From: an uncultured Prevotella sp.
GTDB lineage: Bacteria > Bacteroidota > Bacteroidia > Bacteroidales > Bacteroidaceae
NCBI GenBank assembly: GCA_934219025.1
Contig: CAKQDG010000064.1
Span: forward strand, 1 to 12,780
Reading direction: 5' to 3'
DNA: 12,780 nt
The notes under the pieces are model-generated. The model did not search any database. It worked only from the letters and a program-made list of their open reading frames with translations, and had not been told where the DNA came from. Of this stretch, positions 11,974 through 12,780 are shown one piece after another (positions within the stretch are counted from its first letter, which is position 1; every line of letters starts with the position of its first letter). The position numbers and the translations under genes are program-made.

Positions 11974-12004
11974 CAAATTTACAGAAAATAATTGAGGTTC
12001 ACAA
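11974..12004 (-). promoter_or_regulatory. Promoter of the ATPase remnant
   Basis: TAAATTTG (11974-11981) fits TAnnTTTG and TTG (12002-12004) lies 20 nt upstream on the minus strand. The -7 box is about 18 nt before the remnant's ATG. The upstream box lies in one arm of the palindrome at 11996-12030. Confidence 0.55.
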
Positions 12005-12030
12005 GCCAGTGGTCCACTAACTTGTGAACC
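11996..12030. repeat. 35-bp palindrome overlapping the remnant's promoter
   Basis: GGTTCACAAG (11996-12005) pairs perfectly with CTTGTGAACC (12021-12030), and the centre holds a second palindrome, AGTGG-T-CCACT (12008-12018). It may be an operator for a dimeric regulator or a small foldback remnant. Its outermost six bases, GGTTCA, equal the first six bases of the mobile element that starts 11 bp further on. Confidence 0.75.
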
Positions 12031-12033
12031 TTA

Positions 12034-12041
12034 TAAAGTTT
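12034..12041. repeat. Left copy of 8-bp target-site duplication
   Basis: TAAAGTTT abuts the left end GGTTCATCC of the foldback element and recurs exactly at 12624-12631 directly after its right end. An exact 8-bp direct repeat abutting perfect inverted ends is the mark of transposition. Confidence 0.75.
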
Positions 12042-12118
12042 GGTTCATCCGATATTTGGAGTGATAGTATTTATTATCGGAAGTGAGAGGGATTTTTTAG
12101 ACAAAAACAATAAAAACC

Positions 12119-12248
12119 CCCGAAACAAGTAAAACCCTCGTTCCTCGGGTTAGCCGTTGTATTGTCATATTTCCTTACGAGAACAAGTTCTCGCCGGAAA
12201 TATGCCAATCCATCGCTAATGCCTTCGGCATTTTTACTTGTTTCCGGG
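12119..12248. repeat. Hairpin A of the foldback element
   Basis: The basal stem is GAAACAAGTAAAA (12122-12134 with 12232-12244), extended below by CCC/GGG (12119-12121/12246-12248) across a one-base bulge. Inside are AACCC/GGGTT (12133-12137/12147-12151), a long composite arm (CATATTTCC 12166-12174/12196-12204, capped by CGAGAAC/GTTCTCG 12178-12184/12187-12193, with TTAGC/GCTAA below), and AATGCC/GGCATT with a TTC triloop (12218-12232). The shape is a cloverleaf. Confidence 0.75.
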
Positions 12249-12410
12249 CGATAAACATAAAAAACAAAGGGAATCAAAACCTTGTGGCATACAAATAAAA
12301 CAGTGTGTGAAAATACTGCAATACTTGTTTCTAGCAAGACTGACAAATCTTGGTGTTATACTGTTCTACAGATTGCAAATGATTCTCTTTGTTTTTTATG
12401 TTTATCGCCC
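12246..12410. repeat. Hairpin B of the foldback element
   Basis: A 30-bp stem (12246-12275 with 12381-12410) is perfect except for one G-T pair (12270/12386). The 105-nt loop is AT-rich, with only short internal hairpins (for instance CAAGA/TCTTG near 12334-12353 and CAGT/ACTG at 12301-12318). The stem is conserved in an exact way that the loop is not. Confidence 0.8.
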
Positions 12411-12540
12411 GATGTCGTTTTGCATGGAGACACGAAGTGGCTCTTTGTATAAAGCAAGGTATGGACGGAAGAGAGCTTGCTCTCTAAAGTACATACCTTG
12501 CTTTATACAATAAGCCGAAGGCTTGCAAAACGACATCGGG
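12408..12540. repeat. Hairpin C of the foldback element
   Basis: The basal stem is 17 bp and perfect (12408-12424 with 12524-12540). It opens into a short CAC-GAA-GTG hairpin (12431-12439), a long arm with a perfect 19-bp stem (12445-12463 with 12492-12510) capped by AGAGAGC/GCTCTCT (12470-12476/12479-12485), and an AGCC-GAA-GGCT hairpin (12513-12523). The plan is the same as hairpin A: short hairpin, long arm, triloop hairpin. Confidence 0.8.
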
Positions 12541-12623
12541 GGTTTTATGGGTTTTTGTCTAAAAAGTTGGCAAGGAGATTTCTTCCGATAATAAATATTA
12601 TCACTCCATATCCCGGATGAACC

Positions 12624-12631
12624 TAAAGTTT
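12624..12631. repeat. Right copy of 8-bp target-site duplication
   Basis: TAAAGTTT directly follows the right end GGATGAACC and is identical to 12034-12041. The inferred empty site would read a single TAAAGTTT between the left flank (AACCTTA) and the right flank (TTCCGCTT). Confidence 0.75.
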
Positions 12632-12706: not shown

Positions 12707-12709
12707 CAG

Positions 12710-12780
12710 CGCTTCAAGATGGGCTTGAACCAACGACCCCCTGATTAACAGTCAGGTGCTCTAACCAACTGAGCTATTGA
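12710..12780 (-). tRNA. tRNA-Asn (anticodon GTT), 5' end cut by window edge
   Basis: Read on the minus strand, the window starts within the 5' acceptor strand (TCAA), then gives a D-arm (GCTC...GAGC), the anticodon arm CCTGA-CTGTTAA-TCAGG with anticodon GTT, a GGGTC variable loop, a T-arm with loop TTCAAGC, and the 3' acceptor strand TTGAAGC with discriminator G at 12710. About three 5' bases (expected GCT, from pairing) lie outside the window. No CCA is encoded. The T-stem GTTGG/CCATC has one U-U mismatch. The remaining stems are perfectly paired. Confidence 0.93.

Follow-up and report, generated by a model that had tools for sequence, protein, structure and literature searches.

Two described kinds of system come closest to the DNA element reported here. 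In REPIN-RAYT systems, non-coding pairs of inverted hairpin units are present in many copies together with few copies of a nuclease gene, and the RAYT protein is an HUH transposase; in HEARO/IscB systems a structured element is linked to a nuclease gene, and the omega/HEARO RNAs serve IscB. The family that we describe below resembles the former in having two inverted folded units, many copies and few nuclease genes, and resembles the latter in the linkage of a structured element to a nuclease gene. It departs from HEARO/IscB in having no Rfam match inside the elements searched, a nuclease of predicted PD-(D/E)XK fold, and two inverted arms rather than one RNA. REPs are palindromes of 20–40 bp according to one report (PMC3733652), whereas the family described here has cloverleaf arms of about 125 nt and a PD-(D/E)XK nuclease. 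In the open-access literature we found no description of such a family.

The locus is probably a composite, in which a shell of the ISL3 MITE type surrounds a gene-less copy of a second, arm-paired family that is linked to a GxxExxY nuclease gene, has exchangeable arms, and would be driven by that nuclease.

The element and its parts

The window, by which we mean the whole stretch of 12,780 nucleotides that was analysed, contains an element of 582 bp at positions 12042–12623. It had been described in an initial annotation as a non-coding transposed element with an intact 8-bp target duplication, and its coordinates, the TAAAGTTT repeats outside it and its 9-bp matching ends (GGTTCATCC starting at 12042 and GGATGAACC ending at 12623) can all be read directly. 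No transposase gene had been seen, in agreement with our finding that the longest of the ORFs touching the element (three of at least 80 aa) are only 90–91 aa and give no Pfam match at E 0.1. The "~80-bp arms" of that annotation are indeed long imperfect inverted repeats, but each is not one arm; there is a block of 42 bp just inside the ends (12042–12083/12582–12623) and a separate block of 30 bp deeper in (12094–12123/12536–12565), with unpaired spacers between the two. The parts that we recognise are as follows.

12034..12041, no strand: left copy of the 8-bp target duplication TAAAGTTT, read directly
12042..12083, plus strand: left terminal inverted repeat of the ISL3-type shell (GGTTCATCCGATATTTGGAGTGAT...), from inverted-repeat pairing and motif matches in related genomes
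12094..12120, plus strand: left end of the inner element (TTTTTAGACAAAAACAATAAAAACCCC), with the end motif at 12101–12120, from matches in other genomes and a motif scan
12121..12248, no strand: left cloverleaf arm of the inner element, 128 nt, predicted closing stem and three branches, from the fold
12249..12276, no strand: left side of the middle stem (CGATAAACATAAAAAACAAAG...), compare CGATAAACCGGAAATAAACC at L230, from stem pairing and that comparison
12277..12379, no strand: centre, the position of the GxxExxY gene in some copies elsewhere, with no remnant here (best tblastn E 0.12)
12380..12407, no strand: right side of the middle stem, from stem pairing
12408..12538, no strand: right cloverleaf arm of the inner element, 131 nt, from the fold
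12539..12565, minus strand: right end of the inner element, with the end motif at 12539–12558, from stem pairing and a motif scan
12582..12623, minus strand: right terminal inverted repeat of the ISL3-type shell, from inverted-repeat pairing and a motif scan
12624..12631, no strand: right copy of the 8-bp target duplication TAAAGTTT, read directly

Three long internal hairpin stems that the initial annotation had left out, 12118–12134/12232–12248, 12245–12276/12380–12411 and 12408–12424/12524–12540, are 94%, 97% and 100% complementary respectively. Folded as DNA, the element has a predicted energy of -166 kcal/mol, compared with -58.3 +/- 4.7 for 100 dinucleotide shuffles, none of which is equally low (z -22.9). 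A search of Rfam with the element gave nothing at the gathering score, and the hits below it were just microRNA hairpin models (best 36.8 of 245 bits, E 4.6e-6).

A dispersed inner family

Comparison of the interior (12084–12581) with 398 genomes (the genus of G001) gave matches in eight of them at nine places, all of which lie within the inner stem TTTTTAGACAAAAACAATAAAAACCCC, the few bases beside it, or its partner; the arms of the window element are matched nowhere else in these genomes. Most of the loci with interior matches (for example L141, L145, L146 and L147; not L143) hold multi-hairpin elements of their own, and no ISL3 end pair flanks any of these loci. Both inner ends in the window match ACAAAAACMATAAAAACCCC with no more than four mismatches and in inverted orientation. 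The pattern TTTAGACAAAAACMATAAAAACCCC, with up to two mismatches, is present in 10 of 299 genomes, while the control gave zero in every row; when three mismatches are permitted these ten genomes have 27, 26, 21, 15, 14, 12, 9, 6, 3 and 3 ends, and the reversed controls 0 to 3, the three ends of G251 being no more than its control (3).

The copies are strongly folded, with z values of -5.1 to -12.7 for 11 paired examples and -18.6 for the window interior (20 shuffles each). They are also predominantly short, in that 32 of the 35 paired copies are under 600 bp and thus too short for two arms and a 444-bp gene. We see no clear target duplication: a repeat of at least 5 bp flanks 3 of the 35 paired elements against 7.6% in re-paired controls, and the longest flanking repeat averages 2.4 bp against 1.9 bp in the controls. 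The case for mobility therefore rests on copy number and scatter, from which we infer that the family is mobile; the lack of a clear duplication, in contrast to the shell, supports there being two separate layers. No precise empty site was found for the inner family, the pairs G135/G124 and G215/G147 being too divergent between genes, and there was no match to plasmids and phages for the one inner-family element searched, nor any exact inner end in viral contigs. Within six inner-family elements Rfam has no match at gathering score; the sole such match in the six loci is a Bacteroidales-1 (6S-like) RNA at L160 (806–985), outside the nearby inner-family element. We note also that end motifs (GGTTTTTGT) occur with no adjoining arm near position 2123 of L236 and at 603–622 of L257, a picture that would fit arms that have disappeared or are still to be acquired.

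A nuclease gene in some copies

The inner-family copy at L206 (genome G215) has an ORF of 147 aa in its centre, the product of which is a GxxExxY protein (TIGR04256 E 1.2e-27, PF13366 E 1.1e-27, above both cut-offs). TIGR04256 has 35 matches among the ten genomes with inner ends and occurs in every one of them, and a search with the L206 protein itself finds 39 of the 299 genomes at E <= 1e-25, including all ten; there is no match at 1e-30 in 394 other genomes of the phylum. Two of the ten, G147 and G251, are matched through distant GxxExxY relatives alone, and in G135 the close clade is represented by fragments only. The number of ends in these genomes is as high as 27, and that of close GxxExxY genes is one or two.

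We identified 14 close matches (at least 173 bits) and read 13 of them. Arm-bearing half-units lie within about 600 bp on both sides of 12 of these 13 genes, and the remaining one, G124:C1, has arms on one side only. Nor does the gene always lie within a single element: the flanking arms in G022 belong to two complete gene-less copies, and in G097 a complete copy lies on one side and a fused series of arms on the other. In a tree of 27 proteins (leaving out L228 and L243, which have no ORF by the motif rule, and the fragments L232 and L238) the seven arm-linked proteins form one clade with support of 100/100, apart from the 20 others, and in all seven an F replaces the first G of the GxxExxY motif. 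Although the L206 gene scores above both family cut-offs, the arm-linked proteins are a separate clade. The predicted structure of the nuclease (pLDDT 92.9) is nearest to SSO0001, a Cas4 nuclease, and to alkaline/lambda exonucleases (best E 1.4e-4, TM 0.49), and the modelled fold of the arm-linked protein is that of a PD-(D/E)XK nuclease. No role is given for GxxExxY in those parts of the open-access literature that we consulted, where the family is mentioned in passing.

At L230 (G122) the inner stem around the GxxExxY gene is CGATAAACCGGAAATAAACC, close to the CGATAAACATAAAAAAC of the window. In the centre of the window element there is no trace of the gene in tblastn searches with up to 60 GxxExxY proteins. 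The 18 weaker matches (L274–L291) were checked for the exact end ACAAAAAC, and two of them by eye as well; in those two, L274 and L282, distant GxxExxY genes are flanked by AAAAC-rich sequence with no cloverleaf arms, and at L283–L285 one end motif each lies beside a distant gene. The distant loci with AAAAC-rich flanks may represent a relative of the inner family that has no arms.

Arms conserved in shape

Each half-unit begins with an AAAAAC-rich end, which is followed by the arm and then a second AAAAAC motif, often with a small hairpin after it. Measured with no length preference, 67 of 81 arms are 115–135 nt long, with a median of 125. In a set of 73 arms, from which identical copies were excluded and in which the inner motif nearest 124 nt was chosen where several fitted equally, the lowest-energy fold consists of a closing stem and exactly three branches in 60, as compared with 41 of 1460 shuffled arms; both arms in the window (128 and 131 nt) follow this rule.

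An alignment of 22 half-units was poor, with six pairs predicted, and arms were therefore compared within types. For two arm types, 94.9 and 96.8% of cells are paired, and 43 and 41 cells are changed on both sides. The covariation scores of 0.374 and 0.347 each exceed those of all 500 shuffles and all slid versions, though these controls are lenient, since each structure was derived from the alignment on which it is scored and the arm sequences share ancestry. Two further measures are weaker: for the two types, 2 and 50 of the 500 shuffles had at least as many pairs changed on both sides, and further pair types were no more numerous than in the shuffles. The consensus fold of the 15-arm type has no closing stem.

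Single mismatches in the stems show which strand is folded. Read on the inward strand, A.C outnumbers G.T by 25 to 4 (16 to 4 in 34 less similar arms, p 0.012), and the commonest mismatch is the pyrimidine pair C.T (81); it follows that the outward strand carries G.T and G.A pairs and is the folded one. Where the covariation tables show a change on one side only, it usually creates or removes a wobble pair. At its side of the element the outward strand reaches the 3′ terminus, which would fit either a transferred strand or an outward transcript.

The second of these options raises the possibility that the arms act as RNA, with the half-units transcribed outward from the centre and the structured RNA serving the GxxExxY nuclease by analogy with omega/HEARO and IscB. 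Both the mismatch asymmetry and the preponderance of wobble changes are as such a reading would predict, but the folding strand differs between the two halves, which means that no single transcript could include both arms, and many of the short arm stems have three-base loops of GAA, GTA or AAA on the outward strand, which are typical of DNA. Taken with the six elements that have no internal Rfam match, these features lead us to consider an RNA role unlikely.

Exchange of arms

Comparison of G215 and G124 at an orthologous site supports our preferred reading, in which the arms are separable units of a nuclease-linked element. At this site identity is 93.6 and 92.6% in the flanks and 98.7% in the gene-bearing centre, but falls to 58.9% for the left arms and 55.0% for the right arms, compared with a median of 54.0% (5–95%: 46.6–76.0) for random pairs of arms. 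The breaks in identity coincide with AAAAAC motifs, and G215 has, at a different site, an arm that shares 92% identity with the right arm of G124 here. At a second G215/G124 site one arm differs, with 55.8% identity, and at a third G124 has an arm where G215 has only an end motif. Arms are thus exchangeable as blocks, as judged from alignments of one pair of genomes at a few sites. Here entire arms have been replaced between orthologous loci while the gene and flanks are nearly unchanged, an unusual form of variation in which structure is kept and sequence is swapped as a block.

Such a pattern might also arise if the GxxExxY gene were cargo only, the arms being dispersed repeats that are copied or exchanged by host recombination or replication slippage, and the two travelling together by chance. 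The exchange junctions do fall at short conserved motifs that recombination could use, there are up to 27 ends per genome for one or two close genes, 21 of the 30 GxxExxY loci examined have no inner ends, and in G022 the gene lies between complete gene-less copies and not inside one. Chance association does not, however, readily account for the single, fully supported clade of arm-linked genes or for the arms within about 600 bp on both sides of 12 of the 13 close genes, and we regard the cargo explanation as doubtful.

The outer shell

Of 28 related genomes compared with the window element, four gave matches, over the terminal 25–47 bp only, and two of the matching loci, read by eye, are entire short elements with the 8-bp duplications AAAAATAT and TTGAGTTT. 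Among 299 genomes from the genus of G028, 44 contain the end motif GGTTCATCCGAYATTTSGAGTGAT (up to two mismatches), the reversed-pattern control being zero in every row. We retrieved 20 stretches with this motif, which contain 18 pairs of inverted ends; eight of the 18 paired elements have exact 8-bp duplications, three of them about 1.3 kb (L121, L122 and L124) and five of 297–711 bp (L128–L131 and L139), and the other ten have no exact duplication. The shell ends in related genomes bound both an IS of about 1.3 kb and shorter elements lacking a transposase. Both of the transposases tested (L121 and L126) are of the ISL3 family (PF01610 E about 2e-67; NF033550). The initial annotation had suggested looking for these ends with different 8-bp flanks and for an IS that uses them, and each has been found; its view that this is a single element of no assignable family is not supported, as the ends are those of ISL3 and the foldback interior belongs to a second family that occurs without ISL3 ends.

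Given ends shared with an ISL3 IS in inverted orientation, an 8-bp target duplication, the absence of a transposase and a length shorter than that of the IS, the window shell is, by sequence, a non-coding MITE of the ISL3 family. Unlike other ISL3 MITEs it holds a second, strongly folded element. In the 13 other short ISL3-ended elements no ATG-started ORF exceeds 97 aa; they have only the terminal ~40 bp in common with the window, and the eight for which we have fold values are weakly folded (z -2.6 to -6.2). That the locus is one ordinary ISL3 MITE with internal palindromes gained by mutation, as its ends and duplication alone would permit, is very improbable in view of these 13 elements, the weak folds of the eight, and the ends and arms of a second family in the window interior.

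The composite is present only in the window among 261 sequences scanned, two others having an unpaired weak match 0.9–1.4 kb away. A scan with a long exact pattern taken from the ends in the initial annotation gave no match in genome contigs, probably because the pattern is too long, and we judged its two matches in viral contigs to be chance. The window element has no match in a plasmid search, and one viral contig has an ISL3 end.

A probable composite element

We suggest that the composite was moved in trans by an ISL3 transposase from elsewhere, which would have produced the 8-bp TAAAGTTT duplication. The inner layer that it carried consists of two inverted half-units, each an AAAAAC-rich end with a cloverleaf arm of about 125 nt, around a variable centre. 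The nuclease may recognise the folded arms, and cutting at them could drive copying of the element or exchange of arms between copies; gene-less copies, that in the window included, would then depend on the nuclease. More tentatively, with the balance somewhat against it, the inner layer may represent an undescribed class of mobile element, in which a GxxExxY PD-(D/E)XK nuclease is combined with interchangeable cloverleaf arms that are recognised by shape and swapped as cassettes, with many gene-less copies living off it and one of them carried by an ISL3 transposon. The association of one GxxExxY clade with dispersed elements conserved in shape offers a first testable role for this nuclease family, and the composite suggests that a foldback family can travel by means of another family's transposase.

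The surrounding sequence has several features of its own. The ArgS encoded in the window is most similar to that of Leyella stercorea (84% identity), followed by those of other Prevotellaceae; we inspected 80 related ArgS loci for an empty site, and none of the 80 has the window flanks and none has the tRNA-Asn. This tRNA-Asn gene (12709–12780) lies a short way to the right of the element and is truncated by the end of the window. On the other side a 37-bp palindrome, AGGTTCACAAG...CTTGTGAACCT, occupies 11995–12031, stopping two bases short of the left TAAAGTTT, and has GGTTCA/TGAACC termini similar to the ISL3 ends.
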